Counted from the first letter of the stretch, positions 17,134 through 54,172 are shown. The stretch: 63,680 nucleotides of DNA from Candidatus Aenigmatarchaeota archaeon (GCA_016187385.1 JACPJU010000002.1:1-63680), one strand, 5' to 3'. Numbers and translations: made by a program. Notes: generated by a model from the sequence alone, not told the origin.

Positions 17134-17232
17134 CGCTGGAGGCGAGATTTGAACTCGCAAGAGCTTGCGCTCGCAAGCTTTCCAGGCATACACTCAGAAG
17201 ATTTGTGCCATACCAGGTTAGGCGACTCCAGC
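17134..17232 (-). tRNA. tRNA-Ser(GGA) with a 15-nt intron at position 29/30
   Basis: On the minus strand the acceptor GCTGGAG pairs with CTCCAGC and the discriminator is G, as for serine. The D-arm is GCC/GGC, the T-arm GCGAG-TTCAAAT-CTCGC, and the long variable arm folds as GAGC-GCAA-GCTC (type II). After removing the 15 nt at 17188-17202 the anticodon stem is CAAGC/GCTTG and the loop CTGGAAA, giving anticodon GGA. The mature RNA would be 84 nt without CCA. CCA is not encoded. Confidence 0.9.
17188..17202 (-). other. Non-canonical intron in the anticodon stem of tRNA-Ser
   Basis: The minus-strand sequence ATCTTCTGAGTGTAT interrupts the 5' strand of the anticodon stem between positions 29 and 30. 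It fits a bulge-helix-bulge: a central helix GCAC/GTGT (one G-U pair), 3-nt bulges AAA and ATG, and cuts after the second base of each bulge. Splicing by the archaeal tRNA endonuclease is inferred from this fold. Confidence 0.85.
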
Positions 17233-21494: not shown

Positions 21495-22400
21495 ATGTTT
21501 ACGCAAGAAGAGTTGGAAAATATTATCATTGATGGTTCTGTTGAGGTATATAACGACCATAAAAAACTTGGTAGGAAGGGGCTAGAAGAACGTGGGAAGA
21601 ATCGGTTTGGAGAAACTTCTTTAGTTGGAGACTACCGAGCAGAGGATGTCTGGATAAATAATTTAGAAGAACACAATGTCAAAGCCATGATAATCTCTGA
21701 AGAACATGGAAGGATTGAACTGGGTAATGAATTTACAAGCCATGTTGATGGGTTGGACGGTAGTAAAAATCGTTATCCGATTTTCATGTCAGGCGACAAG
21801 AATGCTAGATACGCAACGATATTTTCAATATATGATGGCAATGATCCTCGCTATGAAGATTATAGAGTGAGTGCGATAATCGAACATCCCACAGGAAGGA
21901 TATTGCTTGCATCCAAAAACAGAGGTATATTTCTTATTGATCCTTTAACAAGAGAAAGAAGTCTCGTTAATGTTCCTTTCACCGGTGAATTTGTTACAGA
22001 AAAAATCCGTGGCAATACACACGCAGGAACAAAATTTTTCAATTCTACCATACGGCCCTATCTTGAAGCATTCCCTGCACTTGATTTGCAATCGGACAAA
22101 GTGGCGCTAAGGGCTAATTCAATATATTACGTTGATTTCGCATTGGGAAAAGCAGACTGGGTACTAGACTCGACTTTCAAGAACAATCTGGAAAAGGCTG
22201 TGGCATATCCTTTTGTCAAGGAAAGGGGTGGTGTAATGGTATCGCTAGATGGAAAAGACATCGGACCACAGAAATATTTTGAGTTTCATTTTGATTCTGA
22301 AGATTATGTTCCAATAATTGCTGCGCCAAGCATCGAGTCTGCGAAGCCAATTTTAGAAAAGATAAGGAAATATTATAGCAGTAATGATTTATTTTCTTAA
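21495..22400 (+). CDS. Inositol-monophosphatase-like phosphatase, copy 2
   Basis: 301 residues from the ATG at 21495 (a TTG two codons upstream is possible). It shares the start (MFTQEELE), IISEEHGRIELGNEF and the C-terminal GGVMVSLDGKDIG with copy 1, so it is a tandem duplicate. The metal motif reads VDGLDGSKNR, with Ser for Thr. The last 4 nt overlap the convergent homing endonuclease gene. Divergence of the two copies suggests different substrates or a heteromer. Confidence 0.72.
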   Translation: MFTQEELENIIIDGSVEVYNDHKKLGRKGLEERGKNRFGETSLVGDYRAEDVWINNLEEHNVKAMIISEEHGRIELGNEFTSHVDGLDGSKNRYPIFMSGDKNARYATIFSIYDGNDPRYEDYRVSAIIEHPTGRILLASKNRGIFLIDPLTRERSLVNVPFTGEFVTEKIRGNTHAGTKFFNSTIRPYLEAFPALDLQSDKVALRANSIYYVDFALGKADWVLDSTFKNNLEKAVAYPFVKERGGVMVSLDGKDIGPQKYFEFHFDSEDYVPIIAAPSIESAKPILEKIRKYYSSNDLFS

Positions 22401-23065
22401 TTAGTATTTTTGTCTATGAACTGCAGTAACTTTTCTTTTTTATAAAACATTACCATTTGTGGAATTACATATTTCAGAAGAAAATGATGTACCCTCTTAG
22501 AAACGTAAAACTCTAGTGTTACCCATCTTGTATCATAAAATTTACCTTTAATGAATTTCTTTCCACATCTTCTTGTTTGCAATATTTTTATATCCAACGA
22601 ACTTTCAAGTTGTTTTTGTAGGAAATCTTGTACTAGTCCGCTTGTTATTCTGATTACACATTGTGGGTATTTTGGACGCTTTACCCGAATATCTCCATCA
22701 CCGTCTATCAAACCCGCCAAATAAGCCCCAAAATACTTAGGTTCTTGAACAGTCCAGATTGGTGGTAGATACACGGGTGATATTATGATTCCTAAAGTAC
22801 GCAATAATTTCATTGACGATTTCATACCTACATAATATTGCCAACCTGATTTGCACTTCCATATTTTGCTTTTTCTATGAAGTATCTTATCAGAAATACT
22901 TCTGAACTTAGTTAACATCGGTAATGATTTTTCGGATATACCAAAACTTAATCCGACACGTTCTTCACATTTCCAGTGATAACGTTTCAAATATCCGTCA
23001 CTTTGAGCTACACCTACCCAGTATGCTAATTCCTCTGATGGTTCTACCATTATTTCTTTCTCCAT
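22397..23065 (-). CDS. LAGLIDADG homing endonuclease, free-standing
   Basis: 222 residues with two LAGLIDADG helices: ELAYWVGVAQSDGYL (about 12-26) and FGAYLAGLIDGDGDI (about 112-126), the layout of a monomeric double-motif enzyme. It has no intein splice residues and is not inside a host gene. It lies 144 nt from the intron-containing tRNA-Gly. Family members cut long DNA sites and mobilise introns or inteins. Start at 23065, with a second ATG at 23050. Confidence 0.8.
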   Translation of the reverse strand: MEKEIMVEPSEELAYWVGVAQSDGYLKRYHWKCEERVGLSFGISEKSLPMLTKFRSISDKILHRKSKIWKCKSGWQYYVGMKSSMKLLRTLGIIISPVYLPPIWTVQEPKYFGAYLAGLIDGDGDIRVKRPKYPQCVIRITSGLVQDFLQKQLESSLDIKILQTRRCGKKFIKGKFYDTRWVTLEFYVSKRVHHFLLKYVIPQMVMFYKKEKLLQFIDKNTN

Positions 23066-23904: not shown

Positions 23905-23976
23905 TGTCGCATATGCGACATCTGCGTGTCTGACGTCAGACATTGTCCCAGCTGGGACATTGTAACACGTGTTACA
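23905..23976. repeat. Palindrome array A: four perfect 16-bp palindromes
   Basis: Four perfect palindromes of the form TGT-N10-ACA: TGTCGCATATGCGACA (23905), TGTCTGACGTCAGACA (23927), TGTCCCAGCTGGGACA (23944) and TGTAACACGTGTTACA (23961). The last three start exactly 17 nt apart. The array fills the whole gap between two convergent genes and abuts the stop codon at 23977-23979. Two of its members recur exactly in array B. Possible roles: binding sites for a dimeric protein, or RNA hairpins at transcript ends. Confidence 0.9.
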
Positions 23977-24507
23977 TCACTTGATGTGCTTCAGAATCAT
24001 CTTCACCCTTTTCTCGACAGAAGCAACCGGTATTCTAACAACCTTGTAGCCCAATTCCATGTATGTCTTCTTTATTGTCTTGTGGATCATCTTGGCTTCC
24101 TTTTCCGTTTCTATCCTCGCATAATCATTCTTGAATGGCAGCATGCCTAAAAGGAAGATTTTCTTGTATCTGTTCTTGCACTGCCCGACAAGATTTTTCG
24201 GTAGTTTCAGTTTAAGATAACGGTAATATGCAAGCAAGTCGGGCATGCCTCTGTCCATGAAGACTGTTTTGTTATTGGGTGTTTTCTTCTCCAGTTGAAA
24301 TTTGACCTTTGTTATGTGATTCTGGAACTCTTGTTTGTCACCCCGTATCTCTTCTATGGTCTTGCCTTTTGCCAATTCCCTGTCTATATACATCCTAGAA
24401 TCCTCAGGAACAGTATAATAGCCCAGTTTTGCGATGTGTTCAAGTGTAGTTGTCTTACCGGAGCCAGGACCGCCTGTGATAACATACCATTCAGGAATTT
24501 TCTTCAT
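23977..24507 (-). CDS. P-loop NTPase/kinase-like protein (AAA_28 type)
   Basis: 176 residues. Walker A is ITGGPGSGKTTTLEHIAKLG; FMDRGMPDLLAYYR carries the aspartate typical of kinase-like P-loop proteins (a D-R-G motif as in nucleotide kinases). It resembles the AAA_28 / COG3911 group, whose function is poorly known. It starts 32 nt after the pafA stop in the same direction, so it may be the last gene of the Pup operon. Palindrome array A follows its stop codon. Confidence 0.65.
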   Translation of the reverse strand: MKKIPEWYVITGGPGSGKTTTLEHIAKLGYYTVPEDSRMYIDRELAKGKTIEEIRGDKQEFQNHITKVKFQLEKKTPNNKTVFMDRGMPDLLAYYRYLKLKLPKNLVGQCKNRYKKIFLLGMLPFKNDYARIETEKEAKMIHKTIKKTYMELGYKVVRIPVASVEKRVKMILKHIK

Positions 24508-24539: not shown

Positions 24540-25913
24540 TTAAATACCAAGTTCTAGGTCAAGTTTTCTGAAATATTCCTCTATTTCTTCTTCGTACGTT
24601 TCAAATGGATCTATCATAGTCGGGGCTGATGTTTTCAGAGGTTTTCCCCACTCTACAGAAGGAAAACTATTCCACATATGCGACATAGTGTGATTTGTCA
24701 ACAAATCTTTGCCACGTTCTTTCATTTTCTTTATAATTAGTGACCTTCCTTTAGCACGTGTATTTGGTGGAGTAGTCATAGCTTTTTCTATATCAACATC
24801 GCTTAAAAGCCGTCTAACAAAATCTTTATTTTGCAGCATATAGAACAAACTTTTTTCACCAATTTCATGATATTTCAAATCCAACATCGAAACTAACGGA
24901 TCTTCGATAGACAAATTTTTCTGTTTCATTTTTGCGTCCAACATTTTCAATTCTATTACCCAGTCCAATTGATCTGAAAGAATCATAGGATTTTTTTCCA
25001 GAGCACCTAGCGTCTTTTCCCATAATTTCAATATATCTGAATTCATGCCATGAAGATATTGACAATCGTTTTCACATCCGCTGGAAAAATGTTTTTGGGC
25101 TTTGGATAGATATTCACGCTGCAAATCTATTGCAGAAATAGTTTTTCCATTTTTAAGCTTTATAGGCCATACAGAATAAAGTCGGGATAACGTATGCAAT
25201 GTCTCTACTGGATTTTCTATTTCCAAGTCAACTAACCCGTCATCTACCAAATCGAGCATTAATGACGTCGCACCAATTTTGAGAAATGTAGAGTATTCTG
25301 ACATATTAGGGTCACCCACTATCAAATGAAGTCTTCTATATTTCGCAGTATCGGCATGTGGTTCGTCACGTGTATTATATATGGCTCTTTGTCCAGCTAC
25401 GTTTGTTGTAGGACCTGATTCATGGTATATATGCATAGCCCTACCTGAGAGCATGAATTCTTTATCAACAAATCCAGAACCCGCATAGATTACACGTGTT
25501 ACAAGAAAGGGAATCATTTGACTAGTCAAATATTCTAGAGGTATTTTTCTATCTACCAAATAATTTTCATGATAACCATGTGTATGTTCTTTTTTGTCAA
25601 CAGCGGTTCTATACAATTTGGCTGAACCTTTGACACCATCAATATCAAAACCATGTTTAAATATTTCTTCAAGAATACGTTCGCCTGCCTTTTCATAAAG
25701 TACAACCTCCAACGGCGTTAGACATTCGGGTGTACTATACTCTGGATGGTCGCCAGCATCTTTGTACAAGCGACCACCATTTAAGAGAGCTGGTGCGTGA
25801 TTAACTATATCCCCAACTTTCGACATAAAGTCACTAATAGTAAGATGCTTCGGTACAAGTTCCCATGAGAACATCCCATATTCCAATTCAGTGCCGTAAA
25901 TTCGACGATGCAC
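24540..25913 (-). CDS. pafA: Pup-protein ligase PafA
   Basis: 457 residues. It would couple the C-terminal glutamate of Pup to substrate lysines with ATP. It aligns with bacterial PafA throughout: RRIYGTELEYGMF (Mg-ATP Glu), GGRLYKDAGDHPEYSTPEC (catalytic Asp), GYHENYL, YNTRDEPHADTAKYRRLHLIVGD and STFLKIGATSLMLDLVDDG. It lacks the Dop-specific WDYxxExPLxDAR loop, which separates it from dop. GTG start, 4 nt after the prcA stop. Confidence 0.93.
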   Translation of the reverse strand: MHRRIYGTELEYGMFSWELVPKHLTISDFMSKVGDIVNHAPALLNGGRLYKDAGDHPEYSTPECLTPLEVVLYEKAGERILEEIFKHGFDIDGVKGSAKLYRTAVDKKEHTHGYHENYLVDRKIPLEYLTSQMIPFLVTRVIYAGSGFVDKEFMLSGRAMHIYHESGPTTNVAGQRAIYNTRDEPHADTAKYRRLHLIVGDPNMSEYSTFLKIGATSLMLDLVDDGLVDLEIENPVETLHTLSRLYSVWPIKLKNGKTISAIDLQREYLSKAQKHFSSGCENDCQYLHGMNSDILKLWEKTLGALEKNPMILSDQLDWVIELKMLDAKMKQKNLSIEDPLVSMLDLKYHEIGEKSLFYMLQNKDFVRRLLSDVDIEKAMTTPPNTRAKGRSLIIKKMKERGKDLLTNHTMSHMWNSFPSVEWGKPLKTSAPTMIDPFETYEEEIEEYFRKLDLELGI

Positions 25914-25917
25914 ATTA

Positions 25918-26679
25918 TCAGCTTTTCAAATAATCATAAAATCTTTTCATTTCGTCTTCATTCAAACGCCGCAAATCTCTTCTTCCTTCAAGAATTCCAA
26001 CATGTAAGACTTCGTCCTCAGAATCATTTAAAAATCCGTCTCTTATGCCGTATACATCACCCAAAGCGTCGATTGAAAACTTGACCGCGCCATCTAAACT
26101 CATTGAACAAAAATCAGGATTTCTGCTTTCTATGTATTCTTCTATTTTAAATTTGATGCCTTTTTTATATACCTTCCCTTCAGGTGAAGTCTCATTTTCG
26201 GAGCCTCCGCAGACTATAAAGTTTTTTCGTGAGGATGGCCAGCCTCTAAAATCTATTCTGTAAAATTTATTGTTTTGGCCCGTATCCGATTCTACAAGAA
26301 CCGTATCAACTTGAAAAGGCATGCTCCAGAGGGTTTCGTAAGTACCCCCGATAAAGTCAATAATGCTCTCTTCACCGTCCAGAAAACTTTGGACTGACCT
26401 GTTGTTATCTTTTGCTATGCCTATCTTCTTTGTAAGATTTTTTACATAACTTCTTATTTTTCTGATGTGGTGATAATTCCCAACGGCTGCAAATGCTATG
26501 CCACTTGTAATAGGTGAAATTTTCTCGATTATGGAAGTACTTTTCGTTACCAAAACTGTTCCGTCACAATAAGTCATTGCTAATATCGGAAATCCTTGAT
26601 TTACTATTTCTTGCGCATAATTGTCTCTCCTGCTCATTTCCGTTGTCAGTGAGAAATATCCACTGTAGACATTGTCCAT
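25918..26679 (-). CDS. prcA: Proteasome alpha subunit, bacterial PrcA type
   Basis: 253 residues. The N terminus (YFSLTTEMSRRDNYAQEIVNQG) matches the gate helix of alpha subunits. ILAMTYCDGTVLVT and GIAFAAVGNYHHIRKIR follow PrcA order, then YRIDFRG and FIVCGG. No threonine stands at the beta-subunit nucleophile position, so this is a non-catalytic alpha ring protein. No prcB lies between pup and prcA, where bacteria carry it. The catalytic ring must come from elsewhere in the genome. Confidence 0.85.
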   Translation of the reverse strand: MDNVYSGYFSLTTEMSRRDNYAQEIVNQGFPILAMTYCDGTVLVTKSTSIIEKISPITSGIAFAAVGNYHHIRKIRSYVKNLTKKIGIAKDNNRSVQSFLDGEESIIDFIGGTYETLWSMPFQVDTVLVESDTGQNNKFYRIDFRGWPSSRKNFIVCGGSENETSPEGKVYKKGIKFKIEEYIESRNPDFCSMSLDGAVKFSIDALGDVYGIRDGFLNDSEDEVLHVGILEGRRDLRRLNEDEMKRFYDYLKS

Positions 26680-26693
26680 GTAATCACATTGAT

Positions 26694-26972
26694 TTATTGA
26701 CCGCCCAATTGCACATACTGTTCTGCTTGTTCCTCGTCTGCTATGAGTTCGTCTATCTCGTCCAAAATTTCGTCGTACTCACTTGTGTCTGTATCAACTT
26801 CTGCGTCTAACTTAACTTCCTTTTCTAGTTCGTAGCTTCCTTTAGACGTAGTTTGCCCAGAATAACCGGTTTGTCTTTTCTGTTCATTAACTACCCTTGA
26901 TGTGCTTACGCCGTAGACGCTTAAAGGTATTAACTCTCCTATTTCTAATACACTCCTTCTATATGATCTCAT
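26694..26972 (-). CDS. pup: Prokaryotic ubiquitin-like protein Pup
   Basis: 92 residues. The C-terminal third (EYDEILDEIDELIADEEQ, then AEQYVQLGGQ) matches the Pup signature, including the acidic ATPase-binding helix and the Gly-Gly-Gln end that Dop deamidates. The N-terminal part is longer than in most bacterial Pups (60-70 residues) and begins with MRSYRRSVLEIGELIPLSVY. The ATG overlaps the dop stop by 4 nt (ATGA), and prcA starts 14 nt after the stop. Confidence 0.93.
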   Translation of the reverse strand: MRSYRRSVLEIGELIPLSVYGVSTSRVVNEQKRQTGYSGQTTSKGSYELEKEVKLDAEVDTDTSEYDEILDEIDELIADEEQAEQYVQLGGQ

Positions 26973-28690
26973 GCTGTCACCTCCAATTTATCTACTAAAT
27001 CGCTAATTGTTCCTGCGTTATCAAAAATATCCTGCGTTAATTTTTTTGTTCCCCTGAAAGGTTCAAGTTTAATTTCGTCCCTATGCCTGCCGTTTCTGAC
27101 ATTTACAACATCCCAGTTGGAACTTATAACATGGTGTGGGAATCTTCTTAGGCATTCGCCTCTGAAATAAGCACGTGTATCTTCTGGCGGATTAGTCATG
27201 GCATATTTTATGTCATCCTCTGAAATTCCAAGGGTATCAACGCGCCCTCTACTTTGATATTTGTGAAATATACCTTCATCTGGATCTATGTTATGATACC
27301 TCATATCTAGTTTGAGGACTTCAGGTGAGGCTAAACTCCAGTTGTGCTTTTTCATCATACCATCTAGCATTTGCTTTTTTATTGCATGATCAAGTTTGGT
27401 CGACAGGTCGGGAAAATCTTGCCTTTTTAATGCATCCAGCACGTATTCCCATCTCCCGATTATTTCGTCACTAGCGGGGTCTGAAGAATAATGTTGTTTA
27501 GCTTTATTGAGATAGAGTTCCTGCACATCAATAGCGGTGCCCTGGCTCCCATCGAGGAAAGTTACATTCCACTTCCATTCTTGGTCTCGTGATATAGAGT
27601 GGAATGCGTCCACGGGATTTTGAATCACAACCTCTTCACCAATGAGTCCGTCTTCAATCAAATCTAAAACTAATTTGGTAGTGCCTGTTTTAAGATAAGT
27701 CGACCAAGGTGCGAGATTTGAATCACCGACTATGACATGAAATCTTCTGTATTTGGACGGATCTGCATGCGGTTCATCCCTTAAGTTTATTAGAGGTCTT
27801 TTAGCTGTCGTTTGTTGGCCTTCCTCGCAAACAAAGAAATCAGCCCGTTGGGATAATTGATAGATTGCTGGAATATCTTTTCTTCCCTTCTCTAAAAATT
27901 CTAAGACATGATAATAAGCAGAACGCGAATCTTCTAAAATGTCTTCCAAACTCTCTTCTTTCGCCTTCTTTTCTAAATTATGGAAAATTGAGTAAAGATT
28001 CCCGTACATATCATTATGCTCGCCTGATAAACCTACTATCTCGAAAAAGACACCTGCTTGCTGAAACTCGCTGAGTATCCATCTTTTAAGTTCTTGATAA
28101 GGATGATATAGTCTTCGTTCGGGGTAAGAATCCGTATGCAAACCCACTTTTCCAGCACCTGTGAAGATCTGTCGGGTAACAAAAAATGGTATCATCAACT
28201 CTCTAATTTTATTCCAAGGTGTTCTTCTTTCAATCAAATAATTCTCATGACAACCAAATGACTTACCTCTGCTGTCGAAATTATTTTTATAAATCACAAT
28301 GGAATCTTTAGCAGTTCTTCTATCGTTTTGCAAATATGCGTTCGCTAACATTCTCGCATGATTCAAGATTCTTTCACCTGCCTTGTCGTGTATAACCAAC
28401 TGAAGAGGCGAGGTGCATTCAGGTGTCGAATATTCAGGATGACCATGATCGTCATAGAATCTGGCTCCGTTTGTGAGTATTCTATTGTTTATATGCCTTG
28501 CATCTCCAAGAGGTAATTCTTGCTCAGCGTTGTAATCCCACTTTGCAAGAGCAGAATCATAACTACCTATAACAAAATCTGTGTCACTGATATGATTTTG
28601 ATCTCGTTCGTCATAAATACTTTTTTTTTCAGCAGAACGTCTAGAAATCCCGTACTCTGTTTCTATCCCCATCACTCTGTCTATTGCCAT
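26969..28690 (-). CDS. dop: Pup deamidase/depupylase Dop
   Basis: 573 residues from the ATG at 28690 (a TTG at 28702 would overlap the ATPase stop). It shares IETEYGIS, NGARFYDDHGHPEYSTPEC, LRDEPHADPSKYRRFHVIVGD and NPPEDTRAYFRGECLRRF with actinobacterial Dop. The Dop-specific KWDYNAEQELPLGDAR segment is present, with a shorter loop. About 90 extra residues (about 185-276) are inserted after GAGKVGL and before YQLSQRADF; no match to them was recognised. Expected roles: Gln-to-Glu deamidation of Pup and removal of Pup from substrates. Confidence 0.92.
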   Translation of the reverse strand: MAIDRVMGIETEYGISRRSAEKKSIYDERDQNHISDTDFVIGSYDSALAKWDYNAEQELPLGDARHINNRILTNGARFYDDHGHPEYSTPECTSPLQLVIHDKAGERILNHARMLANAYLQNDRRTAKDSIVIYKNNFDSRGKSFGCHENYLIERRTPWNKIRELMIPFFVTRQIFTGAGKVGLHTDSYPERRLYHPYQELKRWILSEFQQAGVFFEIVGLSGEHNDMYGNLYSIFHNLEKKAKEESLEDILEDSRSAYYHVLEFLEKGRKDIPAIYQLSQRADFFVCEEGQQTTAKRPLINLRDEPHADPSKYRRFHVIVGDSNLAPWSTYLKTGTTKLVLDLIEDGLIGEEVVIQNPVDAFHSISRDQEWKWNVTFLDGSQGTAIDVQELYLNKAKQHYSSDPASDEIIGRWEYVLDALKRQDFPDLSTKLDHAIKKQMLDGMMKKHNWSLASPEVLKLDMRYHNIDPDEGIFHKYQSRGRVDTLGISEDDIKYAMTNPPEDTRAYFRGECLRRFPHHVISSNWDVVNVRNGRHRDEIKLEPFRGTKKLTQDIFDNAGTISDLVDKLEVTA

Positions 28691-28698
28691 AAATATAA

Positions 28699-30483
28699 TC
28701 AAACAGACAATCTACGATAGGGACGATCTGATGGTCTTTGACTGGTGGAATATTTTTCAGTTGGTGTTATACGCACTATGAGATCGCCCTCCTTACCTAA
28801 AATCTGTGACCACTTTTGTGGCAGCCCACTTAGCAAGATGTCAACTTCTTCTGAGTAGGAGTCATTAATACCTCTGACAAAATCATCGTATCGAAGACCA
28901 TGTTCTTCACCGTGAATTTTTCTTTTAATCGCATAAACCTTTGCACGATTAACAATGCTGTATATCTTGGAACCGCTTATCAAATCCCTGTGGAATAATT
29001 CCTTCTTTCTTCCATCCCTGTATTCTACAATAGCTAAAGGTTCCGAATCTTTAAACAAATGCTCAACAAGGTGATTTACTGCATATTCATGCCAATGTCC
29101 ATTCGAACCCAAAAGCTTTAACTCACTTTCTGCTACAGGCAGTCCATCTGGAATATATACAGAAAATATGCTTCTTGCACCATCCTCATTTGGTCTTGGT
29201 ATTTCTACCTTCTTGTCGATTCTCCCTTCTCTAAGCACGGCTGGATCTATTCTGTCTGGTCTATTGGTAGCGAGAATAGTTATTACAATGTTGCTTTTTT
29301 CTCTTGCTCTCGAATATATGTCACGCAACATTTGTTCGGATTCTCCAACCCATTTACTTAGTATCTCTGGTCCAGAAACATTGTAGAAGAATGGTCTGGT
29401 ATTATTCCCGTTAGTGTATTCGATGTTTTTGTATAATCTGTTTAGCTCTTCAACACCGTCTAATATAGCTAAAGCTTGAGGAACAATAGTATCGCTCATT
29501 GTGCTTCCGCCACCTCCTTCTACATGCACACCTGTCCCACGGACACCAAACAGAGAATCTGCCTCATCGAAAAATACGACTACTGGTGGTGGCCTGCCAT
29601 CTTTTCTCAACGAAAACAGTTCATTTACCAATGCCTTTATGCATAGGGTTTTGCCGCAACCTGGCGGTCCGTGTAAAAGAACGCCTTTTGTTGGCGTGAG
29701 ATTGTATTCACTGTAGACATCAGGATAAAGATAGGGTAGTTCAATTAGCTCTTTTAGCTGTTCTGTTTCTTTTTCCAAGCCTCCGATGCTATCCCATGTG
29801 ATGTTAGGAACATCTTCCAAATACAGTTCCTTTCTATCTTCTCGTGGAAGAACTTCAGTAGCAAATATTCCAGTTCTGTCCAATAAAATTGTATCTCCCA
29901 CTTTTGCTTCGGACTTTCCTACATAATAAACAACCTGTTCTCCATTTCCCAAAAAATTAGAAACCATCAAACGATTTCCTTGAACATCCTTCACTCTAGC
30001 TGACATACCTGTCTCTGGATAGCCGTACACACGCATCAATGCTCCTGTTTTCGGATCTAAAAGAACTTCTCTGCCACTTACCAACTCATCTTTATTCAAA
30101 GAAGGATTAATAGCAACCTGAAGCTGTTCATTTGAACCATAAATGGATACGTGAGCCTCGTCATTATCATACCCGAGCAAAATGCCGCGCCGCAATGGTG
30201 TAGAGTCAAGTTTCTGCAGAAAATCGTAAAGAACTTTTAATGTTTTCTTATCCTCTTTCGCCTGTTGAAAGAGTTCTCTGTGTTTCACTAATTGATTTTT
30301 CATTCTTTGATTGCGGGCGAGTGTCTCATCATAAAAGTTTAATAATGCACGTAAAGTATCGATGAATCCTGTATATTCATGTTTTCCAAGACCATCTACA
30401 TTGGTTACTCTCTGAAGCTGTTTCCTTACACTCCCCAACTTTATAGGGGGGTTGTATGCTGGTTCTCCGTCAACCTTTGTCAT
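28699..30483 (-). CDS. arc: Proteasomal AAA+ ATPase ARC/Mpa-like, permuted AAA module
   Basis: 594 residues. N-terminal coiled coil (about 40-95), OB-fold region (about 97-215), AAA module (about 230-430) and a C-terminal part like Mpa (YRDGRKKELFHRDLISGSKIYSIVNRAK ... KEGDLIVRI). Walker A is GPPGCGKT (272-279). Walker B (VVVFFDEAD, 301-309) comes next, and only then the beta2/pore-loop block (FFYNVSGPEIL and KWVGESE, 365-383), then sensor 1 (ILATN, 403-407). Standard AAA+ order is beta2/pore loop before Walker B. The C terminus lacks the Mpa-type GQYL tail. Confidence 0.9.
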   Translation of the reverse strand: MTKVDGEPAYNPPIKLGSVRKQLQRVTNVDGLGKHEYTGFIDTLRALLNFYDETLARNQRMKNQLVKHRELFQQAKEDKKTLKVLYDFLQKLDSTPLRRGILLGYDNDEAHVSIYGSNEQLQVAINPSLNKDELVSGREVLLDPKTGALMRVYGYPETGMSARVKDVQGNRLMVSNFLGNGEQVVYYVGKSEAKVGDTILLDRTGIFATEVLPREDRKELYLEDVPNITWDSIGGLEKETEQLKELIELPYLYPDVYSEYNLTPTKGVLLHGPPGCGKTLCIKALVNELFSLRKDGRPPPVVVFFDEADSLFGVRGTGVHVEGGGGSTMSDTIVPQALAILDGVEELNRLYKNIEYTNGNNTRPFFYNVSGPEILSKWVGESEQMLRDIYSRAREKSNIVITILATNRPDRIDPAVLREGRIDKKVEIPRPNEDGARSIFSVYIPDGLPVAESELKLLGSNGHWHEYAVNHLVEHLFKDSEPLAIVEYRDGRKKELFHRDLISGSKIYSIVNRAKVYAIKRKIHGEEHGLRYDDFVRGINDSYSEEVDILLSGLPQKWSQILGKEGDLIVRITPTEKYSTSQRPSDRPYRRLSV

Positions 30484-30545: not shown

Positions 30546-30558
30546 AATTTTTATATAG
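30546..30558 (-). promoter_or_regulatory. Candidate promoter of the Pup operon
   Basis: On the minus strand a good TATA element (CTATATAAAAATT) lies about 65-75 nt upstream of the ATPase start, in the 112-nt AT-rich gap after the HIT gene. It would give a 5' leader of about 40 nt. No nearer TATA with good consensus was found. Confidence 0.4.
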
Positions 30559-30595: not shown

Positions 30596-31105
30596 TCAAG
30601 TCTGTTCAATGTCCCTTCTTGCCCAGAACAAATCCTTTTTCGACCATCTGGGCTTTTCCTCAACAGGTTCTTCCTTCTTTTCTTCAACCTTAGGCTGCTC
30701 TACAGGAATGGCAGACTTTAGTTCTTCTGCTATCTCTTTCATCTCTTCTTCGCTGAACTTTTCATTAACATTTATATCAACAACAATACCGTGCAAATCT
30801 TTTTCGTATCTTGGAACTACCCTTATGTGGGCATGCTGTACTTCAAGACCAAGAGTAAGAAAACATATCCATTTGGCACCGAAAGCCTTCTGCGCAGCTA
30901 AACCAACCTTCCTCGCTACTTCAAAATAATCTCCAAAATTCGGAACATCATATGTCCATATATAATGTTTTTTCGGTATTACCAAACAATTTCCTTTTGT
31001 TAATGGTCTGATGTCTAAGAAAGCGATGAAATTGTCGTCCTCATAGACTTTGAGCGCCGGTATCTGGTTTGCTACAATAGCGCAAAAGATGCACTTCTGT
31101 TCCAT
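30596..31105 (-). CDS. HIT-family nucleotide-binding protein
   Basis: 169 residues. A zinc-type start (CIFCAIVANQIPALKVYED) leads to the HIT core (FLDIRPLTKGNCLVIPKKHY) and the triad region QHAHIRVVPRYE. The usual His-x-His-x-His is His-x-His-x-Arg here: the first and the nucleophilic second His are kept, the third is replaced. A charged Glu/Lys-rich tail of about 50 residues follows. Members hydrolyse or transfer nucleotides. It is upstream of the Pup operon on the same strand. Confidence 0.85.
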   Translation of the reverse strand: MEQKCIFCAIVANQIPALKVYEDDNFIAFLDIRPLTKGNCLVIPKKHYIWTYDVPNFGDYFEVARKVGLAAQKAFGAKWICFLTLGLEVQHAHIRVVPRYEKDLHGIVVDINVNEKFSEEEMKEIAEELKSAIPVEQPKVEEKKEEPVEEKPRWSKKDLFWARRDIEQT

Positions 31106-34776: not shown

Positions 34777-34851
34777 TGTGATACGTATCACATAGTAAGA
34801 CATCTTACACAATCTAATGTCCCAGCTGGGACAAATGTCTGACGTCAGACA
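34777..34851. repeat. Palindrome array B: three perfect and one degenerate 16-bp palindrome
   Basis: TGTGATACGTATCACA (34777), a degenerate AGTAAGACATCTTACA (34794), TGTCCCAGCTGGGACA (34818) and TGTCTGACGTCAGACA (34836). The last two are identical to members of array A, 11 kb away, and in reverse order, as expected if the array is inverted. It lies between two minus-strand hypothetical genes. Confidence 0.9.
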
Positions 34852-48555: not shown

Positions 48556-48783
48556 ATGATGAATACTAATGGCGACATCTTAAAAAGAAAACTTGTTGAT
48601 ATTTTAGGGGGGCATCCTGAAGGACTCACTATACAAGACCTTTCTAGGTTAACGGGTGCCCATAGACAAACTGTGCGTGCTTATCTCCAATGGTTGCAAG
48701 GCGCTGGTATAGTCCATCAGAGAAGAATTGGAGCTGTCACTCTAAACTATCATAAAAAAAACTGGAAGCGATTTAATGTATAA
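48556..48783 (+). CDS. HTH regulator at the head of the surface-protein operon
   Basis: 75 residues from the ATG at 48556, preceded by AAGGTGG. A winged helix covers almost the whole protein (ILGGHPEGLTIQDLSRLTGAHRQTVRAYLQWLQGAGIV). The last 8 nt overlap the start of the giant surface-protein gene. Size and position indicate a local regulator, probably acting on the inverted repeat at 48515. Confidence 0.7.
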   Translation: MMNTNGDILKRKLVDILGGHPEGLTIQDLSRLTGAHRQTVRAYLQWLQGAGIVHQRRIGAVTLNYHKKNWKRFNV

Positions 48784-51700
48784 AACAAGTCTTTGCATAG
48801 CAGTATTTCTGTTTTTTGTAGCGTTATTAATTTTTCCGGCGAATATCTACGCCATAACAAATACATCGGTTCTAACGAACCCCAACTTTACAACTTCTGC
48901 GGGTGATACTTCAGGAGCAGATGAGTGGCAGAATATAACGGAGGGAGCATGTGACACAGCACGTATAAGCAAATGGGTCTCTGGAGAAGCAAGGCTTAAC
49001 TCGACATGTCTAGGTAAAAATGATGCAATGAGTGCCAAATGGACACAGAAATTTGCGGTTAATAGCTCAATGACCAATCCGTCGTCAGTCTCGCTTGACT
49101 TCAACCATTCCTTCTGGGTGTGCACTACATGCGCTACCTCCACTTACACTGTAAATTTAACTTATCCAAATGGAAGTGTTGGTGTTTTATTTTCGAATAC
49201 AACCGGAACAACAGCTTATAGAATATATTCGCATTTAGATATAAATGTCAGCAATTTTACTGATTCAGGAGATTATAACATAAGTGTAGGAATAATAGCA
49301 AAAACGGGCAATGCCAATACTGCTAGAATAAGCTTTACCTGGGATGATGTCCAATTCACATATACGTACCCAGCAATAACATCTGTCTCTGTAACTCAAG
49401 AATTGTCAATGACAGGTACTGTAACTTCATCAGTCACGCTAGCACCATCTGTAACAACATATAGACCAAACGTTACAGAACCGTTGACATTAACCCCGAA
49501 CATCATAAATATTTTATCTGCTTCCCGAGGAATAACAAATGTTTTAGACATATTTGATTTATACAGCTCACTGCAGTCTTTGATCAAAAGCTCTACTAAC
49601 GCTGTTGACTTGACAGATGCCCCCAATCGTTTCCAAAGATTCCAGAAAACCACTACAGAAGCCCTGACTTCTGCAGATAGGATTTCATTCATATTGTCTC
49701 GTGTAAGGACTATAACCGATGCGTTGGACATAACAGATAATATCCAGATACTACTCACGAGAGTAAGACAGATAACAGACTCTATATCATTTACGGATCG
49801 GATTCAAACACTATTCAACAGAGTGAGATTTTTGACAAATGCACTTTCATTAGGAAATGTTATAACAACTCAAGTAACCATACCTGTAGTCAACAGGGCA
49901 GTCACTTTGGCAATCACTACCGCGGACAATCTGCAAAGAATATTCTCCACCATCAAACTAACAACTAATGCAATAAGCTTGACTAATGTTGTGACTGCTA
50001 CCTTAACCCGCCTGGTCCAATTAACTCAGGCATTAGATATAACCGACACCGTTCAAGTGTTGTTCACAAGGGTTAGATTATTGACAGATGCTATAGATTT
50101 GACAGAATCCGCATCGCGATTGGCGTCTTTCTTGCGAAGTTTGACCAGCCCTGTGGATCTGGCTGACAGCATAACATCTCCGCTGGCTCGCCTCAGAAGT
50201 CTGACAGATGCCTTGGATGTGACAGATAATGTTCAAATTTTATTTACTCGTGTTAGGCTAATCACTAATGCGATTGACTTGACTGAAAGCATGACTCGCC
50301 TGGTTTCGTTTACCCGTTCATTGACGAATGCTGTGGATTTGTCAGAAGTTGCAGAAAGATTTAGGATTTTGTTGAAAAATGTGACGGATTCATTCACTCT
50401 GGCCGAGAGGATTACAACTGCTGTATTCAAGCTGTTTCCGAGAACTGTGACAGCTGCCTTGGATGTAACTGACAATATTCAAATTCTCTTAACAAGAGTC
50501 AGGTCAGTAACGAATGCGATGGATATTAATGAGAATATCACAGTAATTCTAACTCATATTAAATTAATTACTAACTCTATAGATCTGGCAGAAAGTACAA
50601 AGGCTGTCATAACTCTATTGAGACAAGTCACAGGTGCCGTAGATGTAACGGAAGGCATGCAAGCTATATTGACGAGGATGAAATTATTAACTAATGCAAT
50701 GGACTTGACAGAGACTGTCCAAAATATATTCACAAGAGTGAGGCTTGTATCTGATGCATTGGACATCAACGAACTTACAACTAGAATATTTACAGCAATA
50801 AAGCAGTTAACCAATTCTATAACATTTGTGGAAAGAATAACAACTACTGTATTCAAGCTGTTTCCGAGAACTGTGACAGCTGCCTTGGATGTGACAGAAA
50901 ATCTTGCAACTGCATTGACTAGAGTGAGGCTATTGACTGAAGCTGTGGATTTAAGCGAGAGTATGAACAGGCTTACGTCTTTAATTAGGTTTTTCACAAA
51001 TGCGCTTGACTTGACAGAACTGACAGGAAGATTCAGGACTATGTCCCTGCAGGTGACTGGTGCGTTGGATATAACCGATAATATCCAGGCACTATTAACG
51101 AGGGTTCGATCAATCAATAATACGATAGGTGTTGCGGACAATATTAAAATCTTGTTTACGCGTGTAAGATTGCCAACTAACGTCATTGGTTTGGCAGATG
51201 GTATATCACGTTTAATATCATTTACACTGTCATTGACGAATGCTGCAGATTTGTCAGAAACGATAACATCTAGTCTAGGAAGGTTGCGAAAAGTTACGCA
51301 GGCGTTTGATCTGGCAGAGAATATACAAGCTTTGTTAACCCGTGTAAGGCTAGTAACCGATGCCTTGGATGTGACAGATACTACAGCAAAGTTGCTTCGA
51401 TTCACTAGAACATTCACAAACGCTCTAGGTGTGACCGATATTGCGGAAAGGTTTAGAACTCTAACAAAAAGTGTGACTGATTCGTTTGCGTTTACTGAAA
51501 GAATAAGAGCTGTTGCACTTAAGGCCTTTTCCAGGACAGTGACAGAGACATTGGGTCTATCAGACGGCATACAAAATCTATTCACACGGGTCAGACTGGT
51601 GACGAATGCTGTTGATTTGGCAGAAATTGCATCAAGACTATTTTCTTTCGTGAGGAACTTGACGAATGCTGCAGATTTGGCAGACAGCATAACATCTCCG

Positions 51701-54172
51701 CTGGCTCGCCTCAGAAGTCTGACAGATGCCTTGGATGTGACAGATAATGTTCAAAACTTGTTCGCGAGAGTCAGATTAATAACGAATGCTATAGACGTGA
51801 CAGAACTGACAGGAAGAATGTTCTCGCTCACAAGATCGTTGACAAATGCGATAGATTTGAGTGAAATAGCAAACAGATTCAGAATAATACCGAGACAATT
51901 GAGCGATGCTTTGAGCATAGCCGACAGCATCAGAACTAATCTTGGAAGGCTAAGACAAGTCACAGTTCCGATAGACCTGACAGAGTTTACATCGAGGATT
52001 GTTGATTTCAGAAGAGCTGTATCACTGCAATTCCTTGTGACAGCAGTCACAGCCACTCCATTCAAGACGGTAAGTGCATCGTTCACAATACCAGTAACAT
52101 CATTATCACAAGGGCAGTTTGCTGAATTCGACATTAATGTCCAGAACACAGGAAACGAGAAGATGAATGTCACCACTGGCGTAGATGTTTACAACTCAAG
52201 CCATTTGGTTACGACAGTTAATTCCACAAACGTGACGCTTTCTGCAGGACAGTCCAAAACAATTATAACATTCATGAACACAGCCAACATGACAGCAGGC
52301 AACTATAGGACAGAAGGGAGTGTATTCTTTGACGGAAGGTCGACCATAAACATGACGAAATACTTCAATTTGACTAATGTAGGGAATGTGCAGACAGGAG
52401 CCTATACAAACACATCAATCAACTTTACAGCCAACACCCCGATACTGATAATCGCCAACACGACTACAACTACAATAGTCAACATAAGCATTATTCTGAA
52501 TTCAACGCAAGAAAACGCGTTTTCGGTTTCAGAATTTTCTACGGTTCCGAACAAGACAGTAAGCAATCTAAAAGAGTTGAACAAATTCATTGACATTACA
52601 GTGAATGAAAACATAACAAACAGCCTGAAATGGTTCTGGTTGAATGTGTCTTACACGGATTCTGAGATTTCAGCTGCAGGCTTGAGCGAATCCAACTTGA
52701 GAATATGGTTCTACAATACGACATCAACAACATGGCAACAGGAATCTGACAGCGGAGTAGATACTTCAGCCAACTATGTGTGGGCGAATGTCTCCCACTT
52801 TAGCTTGTTCGGAATATATGCAACAGTACCGTCACAACCTTCAACTACAACGCCGTCGACAACAACAGGCGGAGGCGGTGGAGGAACACTCTCGACGTTG
52901 CCTACTGTAAAAACAGAATTTGTCAAATGGCCCATATTAAGGGAAGTGAAAGCAGGACAGAGCATAGTCGAAGGGATAAAAGTCAAAAACAAAGGAACAG
53001 ATATTCTCAAAAATCTGCAGATACAAGTTTCGGGCGTGCCTCCAGGCTGGATAAGCATTGTTCCAAACTCGATTGATCTGCAGCCTAACGAATACAAGAC
53101 GTTCAACCTAGCTGTCAGCGTGCCGAAAGATACCGACAGAGGCGACTACAAACTATTGATTACTCTCAAAGGTTCGAATATAGAAGACTCCAGTTTCATC
53201 ATCCTGAGGGTCAAGGACTATGCTCCAAGCTACGACAGGCCGATAGTGGAAAGGATTGTTGAACTGGATTACGAACATGAGAAAACAAAGGTCACATTGA
53301 ATGTCAATAATCCTCTCAAATATTACGAACTTGTTCAGGTAAAGGAAGAGATACCAAAGTCAATTTCCCAGTCTGCAAAAGAAGTGGAATTCAATCCGTA
53401 TCCAGACGAGATAATCAGGGAAGATCCACTAGTCCAGTGGGACATCAAGGAATTCGCAGTCAATGAAACAAAAACACTTTCTTATGCAACAAAAGGAATC
53501 TTGGACGAGTTCACAGATTACATATACTTCCCGCTCAAGGAGATGAACATAATCGAGACGAAACTGCCCACTGGACTGAAGCTGGTGGATGTCAGCGTAG
53601 GAACCATGTACGCCGGCAAGTCCACAGCGGGAAAGATAATTGTTGAAAATATCGGAGATGAAGAAAAGAAACTGGAATTCTCAATGCAACTGCCGCCAAG
53701 CTGGAGGATGGTTCCTGAAAGAATAGAGGCTAATGTAGCCGCACATGAAAGGAAAGAGTTCAAGTTCTCGATTGTAGTCCCAGAGGATACCTCACCGGGA
53801 GATTACATAGCAACAAGCATTATCTTGTGGGATACAGATACCCACATAAAAGAACATGTCCTCCAAGTAGCATCAACCTCTTTAGTGACTGGACTTGCCC
53901 TGTTTGGCGGTATAGCTACAACATCATTGGTAGGCTACTTCATTTGGTCATTCTACCGAACAAGAATTCCGCCCATGAGCAACATGGAGAAGCTCAGAAA
54001 AATAAGAACAAGCATTCTCTCGCAACAATTGCAAATTCAACAGTCGGCAGAATTTTCTGATGTGATTGGATTGAAGGACGAACTAGTGGAGGATGTCAGA
54101 AGCAAGTTAAGGCATGAAGTCATGAAAAGGCTCAACGAGGAAGAGGAATTCAAAATAAGGAAAAGAGAATAG
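48776..54172 (+). CDS. Giant repeat-bearing surface protein, membrane anchored
   Basis: 1798 residues. Signal peptide 1-26 (ends ANIYA). N-terminal beta domain to about 240. About 40 tandem repeats of 20 residues (about 275-1087), consensus [LIV]T-[ND]-A-[LIV]-D-[LIV]-[TS]-[DE]-x-[IV]-x-x-[LI]-x-T-R-[VL]-R-x. Then CARDB/NEW3-like domains, a PGF-pre-PGF-like domain (about 1265-1341), a Ser/Thr/Gly linker (TTTGGGGGG), more Ig-like domains, one TM (about 1703-1727) and a charged cytosolic coiled tail of about 71 residues. Many Asn-x-Ser/Thr sequons. Probably a fibrous S-layer-like or adhesin stalk. Confidence 0.8.
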   Translation: MYKTSLCIAVFLFFVALLIFPANIYAITNTSVLTNPNFTTSAGDTSGADEWQNITEGACDTARISKWVSGEARLNSTCLGKNDAMSAKWTQKFAVNSSMTNPSSVSLDFNHSFWVCTTCATSTYTVNLTYPNGSVGVLFSNTTGTTAYRIYSHLDINVSNFTDSGDYNISVGIIAKTGNANTARISFTWDDVQFTYTYPAITSVSVTQELSMTGTVTSSVTLAPSVTTYRPNVTEPLTLTPNIINILSASRGITNVLDIFDLYSSLQSLIKSSTNAVDLTDAPNRFQRFQKTTTEALTSADRISFILSRVRTITDALDITDNIQILLTRVRQITDSISFTDRIQTLFNRVRFLTNALSLGNVITTQVTIPVVNRAVTLAITTADNLQRIFSTIKLTTNAISLTNVVTATLTRLVQLTQALDITDTVQVLFTRVRLLTDAIDLTESASRLASFLRSLTSPVDLADSITSPLARLRSLTDALDVTDNVQILFTRVRLITNAIDLTESMTRLVSFTRSLTNAVDLSEVAERFRILLKNVTDSFTLAERITTAVFKLFPRTVTAALDVTDNIQILLTRVRSVTNAMDINENITVILTHIKLITNSIDLAESTKAVITLLRQVTGAVDVTEGMQAILTRMKLLTNAMDLTETVQNIFTRVRLVSDALDINELTTRIFTAIKQLTNSITFVERITTTVFKLFPRTVTAALDVTENLATALTRVRLLTEAVDLSESMNRLTSLIRFFTNALDLTELTGRFRTMSLQVTGALDITDNIQALLTRVRSINNTIGVADNIKILFTRVRLPTNVIGLADGISRLISFTLSLTNAADLSETITSSLGRLRKVTQAFDLAENIQALLTRVRLVTDALDVTDTTAKLLRFTRTFTNALGVTDIAERFRTLTKSVTDSFAFTERIRAVALKAFSRTVTETLGLSDGIQNLFTRVRLVTNAVDLAEIASRLFSFVRNLTNAADLADSITSPLARLRSLTDALDVTDNVQNLFARVRLITNAIDVTELTGRMFSLTRSLTNAIDLSEIANRFRIIPRQLSDALSIADSIRTNLGRLRQVTVPIDLTEFTSRIVDFRRAVSLQFLVTAVTATPFKTVSASFTIPVTSLSQGQFAEFDINVQNTGNEKMNVTTGVDVYNSSHLVTTVNSTNVTLSAGQSKTIITFMNTANMTAGNYRTEGSVFFDGRSTINMTKYFNLTNVGNVQTGAYTNTSINFTANTPILIIANTTTTTIVNISIILNSTQENAFSVSEFSTVPNKTVSNLKELNKFIDITVNENITNSLKWFWLNVSYTDSEISAAGLSESNLRIWFYNTTSTTWQQESDSGVDTSANYVWANVSHFSLFGIYATVPSQPSTTTPSTTTGGGGGGTLSTLPTVKTEFVKWPILREVKAGQSIVEGIKVKNKGTDILKNLQIQVSGVPPGWISIVPNSIDLQPNEYKTFNLAVSVPKDTDRGDYKLLITLKGSNIEDSSFIILRVKDYAPSYDRPIVERIVELDYEHEKTKVTLNVNNPLKYYELVQVKEEIPKSISQSAKEVEFNPYPDEIIREDPLVQWDIKEFAVNETKTLSYATKGILDEFTDYIYFPLKEMNIIETKLPTGLKLVDVSVGTMYAGKSTAGKIIVENIGDEEKKLEFSMQLPPSWRMVPERIEANVAAHERKEFKFSIVVPEDTSPGDYIATSIILWDTDTHIKEHVLQVASTSLVTGLALFGGIATTSLVGYFIWSFYRTRIPPMSNMEKLRKIRTSILSQQLQIQQSAEFSDVIGLKDELVEDVRSKLRHEVMKRLNEEEEFKIRKRE
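49540..52040 (+). repeat. Coding array of about 40 degenerate 60-bp repeats
   Basis: Repeats encode 20-residue units; rare 22-residue units (VTDSFTLAERITTAVFKLFP) interrupt them. Two stretches of 73 bp are identical (50165-50237 and 51683-51755), and about 42 bp around 50421 recur near 50848, so recent internal recombination or gene conversion is at work. The reading frame is open throughout. Confidence 0.85.

Follow-up and report, generated by a model that had tools for sequence, protein, structure and literature searches.

Does the five-gene block at positions 24540-30483 of a 63,680-nt stretch of DNA (the window, which is the whole contig C3 of its genome) represent a bacterial-type pupylation system in an archaeon, and what could such a system do there? 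Pupylation has been regarded as restricted to Actinobacteria, Nitrospirae and, sporadically, other bacteria (PMC7947786; PMC3511204). A sequence-only reading of the window had stated that no archaeal pupylation system is described, and we likewise found no report of one in the open-access literature; since the original UBact papers lie outside that scope, priority for archaeal pupylation is unproven. We consider it probable that the chromosome of this small-genome archaeon carries a bacterial-type pupylation operon, placed as one block between two resident genes. In our best reading, it is a reversible pupylation module that was acquired from bacteria and adapted in the archaeon.

Gene content of the locus

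The five genes are adjacent on the minus strand. The first one encodes an Mpa/ARC-like ATPase (28699-30483, 594 aa), and it is followed by the genes for Dop (26969-28702; 577 aa from TTG, 573 aa from an internal ATG), Pup (26694-26972; 92 aa, C-terminus YVQLGGQ), a PrcA-type 20S alpha subunit (25918-26679, 253 aa) and a PafA-type Pup ligase (24540-25913; 457 aa, GTG start). The Mpa-like and Dop genes overlap by 4 nt, as do those of Dop and Pup, whereas gaps of 14 nt and 4 nt separate Pup from the PrcA-like gene and the latter from PafA. GGAGGTGA is a strong Shine-Dalgarno sequence of the Pup gene, and an archaeal TATA-box-like candidate read from the sequence, CTATATAAAAATT (30546-30558, minus strand), is situated approximately 65 nt upstream of the first operon gene. 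The set of genes, and the gaps of 4-14 nt or short overlaps between them, had been proposed from the sequence alone; both were borne out, by ORF coordinates and, for the gene set, Pfam and NCBIfam profiles. The suggested profile search placed the proteins in the Pup, Pup-ligase and proteasome families. However, the NCBIfam equivalog matches of all five score under the curated cut-offs, and the proteins should hence be seen as divergent family members.

Archaeal setting and insertion site

The host genome comprises 876 kb in 3 contigs and is 91% complete and 0.15% contaminated. The operon is bordered downstream by an AAA_28 nucleoside-kinase-like gene (23977-24507) and upstream by a HIT-domain gene (30596-31105), both on the minus strand, and beyond the HIT gene follow ribosomal protein L3 (Pfam) and further ribosomal proteins (read from the sequence). 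In two congeners, G002 and G003, HIT and AAA_28 are directly adjacent beside rpl3, with a gap of 25-27 nt. Hence, the 6.1-kb operon has been cleanly inserted into archaeal DNA at a conserved site. A third congener, G004, has another gene of 371 aa at the same junction (L128 2515-3630), which may therefore be an insertion hot spot; G001 is without AAA_28.

The operon is absent from all four congeners and from the rest of the family searched, as would be expected if bacterial DNA had been joined to an archaeal contig through chimeric assembly or binning contamination. Nevertheless, the operon replaces exactly the short HIT/AAA_28 junction of the congeners, which is a strong argument against a chimera, and its GC content (0.37-0.41) and codon usage are within the range of the other window genes. 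Furthermore, the assembly has so few contigs and so little contamination, no bacterial relative exceeds approximately 46% identity among the matches listed, and related tag-ligase pairs sit amid archaeal genes in other genomes. We regard such an artefact as extremely improbable; the unoccupied site in G002 and G003, together with the ordinary composition, answers the worry about a chimeric contig, and the claim of an archaeal contig is upheld by this site, the L3 neighbourhood and the low contamination. The ordinary composition moreover indicates that the operon is no very recent import, or that its donor was of similar composition.

Some other features of the contig may be mentioned. An ORF at 22397-23065, approximately 1.5 kb from the insertion, has the look of a LAGLIDADG homing endonuclease. 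The compound palindromes TGTCTGACGTCAGACA and TGTCCCAGCTGGGACA (23927-23961 and 34816-34851) flank the region as inverted copies, and similar copies exist elsewhere, on contig C2. A tRNA of 99 nt (17134-17232, Rfam 37 bits), which ARAGORN missed, is probably intron-bearing, and a protein of 1798 aa with many degenerate internal repeats (48776-54172) is likely a surface protein.

The Pup tag and the ligase-type enzymes

The Pup protein matches PF05639 at 20.8 bits (cut-off 27) and the C-terminal profile TIGR03687 at 22.5 bits, again under the curated cut-off. In a comparison with dozens of bacterial Pups, its tail DEILDEIDELIADEEQAEQYVQLGGQ aligns with the bacterial D-LLDEIDDVLEENAEDFVRAYVQKGGQ save for a two-residue deletion. 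Judged by its sequence, it is a Pup, i.e. a short acidic tag with a GGQ/GGE end and the conserved C-terminal helix motif. Two other explanations of the tag were rejected: a chance GGQ ending, because only one of the 461 window ORFs of 30-150 aa, Pup itself, ends in GG[QE] and it occupies the expected position in the operon, and a UBact identity, because PF20513 finds no match in the tag's own genome.

Dop and PafA both match the Pfam Pup_ligase family PF03136 (E 7.4e-142 and 4.6e-109, respectively) and both retain the ATP and catalytic-Asp motifs, which in PafA read GTELEY and YKDAGDHPEY. Dop reaches 435 bits with TIGR03688 and 373 bits with TIGR03686, and the best NCBIfam match of PafA is TIGR03686 with 325 bits, all under cut-off; among PDB entries, PafA matches 4b0t/4bjr and Dop. 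Phylogenies of the two enzymes had been suggested as a check. The ligase tree was rebuilt minus four of the archaeal ligases, because long branches had been joined in a version that included all. It is clear for Dop, which clusters with bacterial Dops (support 100/98), while its placement with PafA is rejected (p 0.004); the nearest Dops by tree path are Rokubacterial and proteobacterial. By placement and motifs, the protein is thus a Dop-lineage member of PF03136; it carries an insert of approximately 85 residues (27863-28126, minus strand, aa 193-280) that is absent from the bacterial Dops aligned. PafA stands on a long branch, and a single clade with bacterial PafA is neither rejected nor supported (p 0.24). 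Its sequence makes membership in PF03136 certain; its exact placement in the tree is unsure.

Distribution in the phylum and origin of the operon

Homologues of the Pup ligase (PF03136) were found in 8 of the 156 genomes of the phylum, spread over several families. Two of them, G075 (L022 13605-14408) and G076 (L019 8937-10379), have a UBact tag gene directly upstream of the ligase gene; both tags exceed the Pfam cut-off of PF20513, and the TFB and aIF5A genes that the pairs adjoin look archaeal on reading of the sequence. In G089, an ORF of 51 aa ending QYKQKGGE (L018 459-614) lies upstream of the PF03136 gene, matches no profile and is possibly a third tag type. G080 holds just a 93-aa C-terminal ligase remnant (L025 8622-8903). 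The tag that ends in Q coincides with a Dop gene, and in archaeal relatives where no neighbouring Dop was seen, the last residue of the tag is E (RSGE, RQGE, KGGE). Among the eight PF03136 genomes, the N-terminal part of Mpa is confined to the window genome, which is also the only one of the phylum genomes searched with Dop, Pup, PrcA and Mpa together. Viral contigs hold no relative of the operon, and no archaeal record is among the at least 80 contig loci listed as relatives, a set that does not represent the overall closest ones.

The spread of PF03136 genes over several families would fit an old archaeal inheritance, with pupylation already present in the phylum ancestor and lost by most members including the congeners. 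In line with this, the G080 remnant and the window PafA are mutual best matches (58.5 bits, next 33.9) with TRAxGRSL common to both, and the G089 ligase joins the window PafA with support 95/81, although such joins of long branches are unreliable. However, the distribution is patchy, the four other components are united in the window genome only, and the site is empty in congeners, so that we hold this origin to be rather unlikely. Lateral transfer or an older distribution had been offered as alternatives in the sequence-only reading. There is evidence for both, namely an acquisition within the genus and patchy PafA/UBact-type genes in the phylum.

Proteasome subunits

The PrcA-like protein scores 51 bits with 20S_bact_alpha (TIGR03691), under cut-off. 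In the AF2 model (pLDDT 84, pTM 0.83), it takes a fold for which every top Foldseek match is an M. tuberculosis proteasome chain (TM(target) ~0.82). It has the H0 helix, and its Lys53, which we take to be the activator-pocket lysine, is invariant across the aligned subunits. Profile score and predicted fold identify it as a PrcA-type alpha subunit.

No PrcB exists in the genome according to proteasome-subunit and bacterial PrcB profiles, which found just the host's archaeal alpha subunit, in the exosome operon, and its beta subunit, on contig C2. The bacterial loci collected are ordered Mpa-Dop-Pup-(PrcB)-PrcA-PafA, and between Pup and PrcA they have a PrcB-sized space that is presumably the PrcB gene; in the window, the alpha-type gene begins right after the 14-nt gap. 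Therefore, the proposed actinobacterial order holds for the five genes present but not for PrcB. In the host, PSMA and PSMB are both present, whereas PAN was not seen and the sole AAA match in the profile search is Cdc48-like. An ORF adjoining PSMA (L027 6744-7700) resembles a LAGLIDADG homing endonuclease on inspection of the sequence.

The ATPase

The Mpa-like ATPase scores 369 bits with pup_AAA (TIGR03689), under cut-off, and its best PDB matches are the Mpa structures 5kwa/7px9. It has the architecture that marks the Mpa/ARC family, i.e. an N-terminal coiled coil, two OB domains and one AAA domain, and the AF2 model confidently gives a helix at 34-93 followed by OB-type strands. The Mpa tree is uninformative, with a window branch of length 10. 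Two deviations stand out. First, the protein ends in SDRPYRRLSV and has no GQYL/HbYX docking tail, whereas all of the bacterial homologues (67/67) end in GQYL, GQYV, WQYL, GTFL or GAYL. Second, the beta3/Walker-B/alpha3 unit (29440-29607, minus strand, aa 293-348) stands before the beta2/pore-loop-1/alpha2 unit (29293-29439, minus strand, aa 349-397), the reverse of the canonical order in 67/67 bacterial homologues. The claim of a complete locus had to be given up in view of the absent PrcB, the absent docking tail and this permuted AAA core.

The swap was seen by PDB alignment, by profile pieces and by multiple alignment. It may have arisen naturally or through an error of assembly. All three junctions are in frame and lie between beta-alpha units; their longest common word is 7 nt, by which a long-repeat misassembly was rejected as the cause. 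Since P-loop sheets consist of parallel beta-alpha units, the exchange of two such units is topologically conceivable. AF2 is neutral on the swap, as its pLDDT falls below 50 over aa 310-386, where the input alignment breaks. A genuine swap would make the protein a rare case of an unfoldase motor permuted in nature.

The absence of PrcB and of the docking tail and the altered order of the AAA core could also be steps in the decay of an import. Besides these three defects relative to bacterial loci, the very long Mpa branch would agree with decay, and the PafA remnant in G080 demonstrates that such loss occurs. On the other hand, five long unbroken ORFs with tight operon spacing, a strong Pup Shine-Dalgarno sequence and retained catalytic motifs are hardly expected in a decaying operon, which we thus consider improbable.

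Possible working of the module

Several points speak against our main reading of a bacterial-type pupylation operon, namely the lack of PrcB and of a GQYL/HbYX tail, the permuted AAA core, the scores under cut-off and the long PafA branch. Nevertheless, the kept motifs, a Dop available for the Gln tag and a PrcA-like protein that models well with Lys53 make tagging and de-tagging by the operon likely. Dop would deamidate the C-terminal Gln of Pup to Glu, PafA with ATP would activate this Glu and join Pup to lysines of target proteins, and Dop could also strip the tag again. The Mpa-like ring, as its domains suggest, would bind Pup by its coiled coils and unfold the tagged protein. Whether tagging is coupled to degradation is uncertain. 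If it is, the missing PrcB implies that the PrcA-type alpha ring would most likely stack on the host's archaeal beta ring; such a hybrid 20S proteasome is speculative.

Pupylation might instead proceed without proteasomal degradation: the operon would tag and unfold, its motor acting alone like ARC in proteasome-less corynebacteria, and the PrcA-like protein would be a leftover or have another role. The absence of PrcB and of the GQYL tail points in this direction, and proteasome-less pupylation loci, with more sequence variation, are known (PMC3511204). But the PrcA-like gene is intact and has kept the alpha fold, the H0 helix and Lys53, which a leftover should lose; we see this alternative as possible, yet not probable. 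A working archaeal pathway, a hybrid 20S and a motor with naturally exchanged beta-alpha units are, taken jointly, a doubtful combination.

The recurrence of Pup/PafA and UBact/PafA modules in one archaeal phylum would bring this tagging chemistry into a second domain. Moreover, with a native archaeal proteasome in the same host, the way in which tag, motor and 20S core assembled becomes directly testable, in a natural case of a tagging module and alpha subunit without a protease subunit of its own.

Comparison with known systems

Compared with the mpa-dop-pup-prcB-prcA-pafA locus of M. tuberculosis and other Actinomycetota, the window is alike in order, strand, the five protein families, the GGQ end and the Dop/PafA paralogues. 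It differs in its archaeal setting, in lacking PrcB and the GQYL tail, in the permuted AAA core and in the 85-aa Dop insert, and its proteins are approximately 25-46% identical to the actinobacterial ones. In Myxococcota, Poribacteria and Rokubacteria, the Pup-proteasome loci also share the gene order; however, they retain GQYL (GTFL/GAYL in Poribacteria) and offer space for PrcB, and the window lacks both. Proteasome-less loci (cluster III, PMC3511204) likewise have no complete 20S next to Pup, Dop, PafA and ARC, but they lack proteasomal genes altogether, whereas the window retains an alpha-type subunit. UBact conjugation is represented in the host phylum by the UBact-ligase pairs of two species (G075, G076); in contrast, the window has a Pup ending in GGQ, and Dop is present. 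The archaeal SAMP/Urm1 systems are similar as archaeal protein tagging with a possible proteasome link, while their beta-grasp modifiers and E1 enzymes follow a chemistry unrelated to pupylation.
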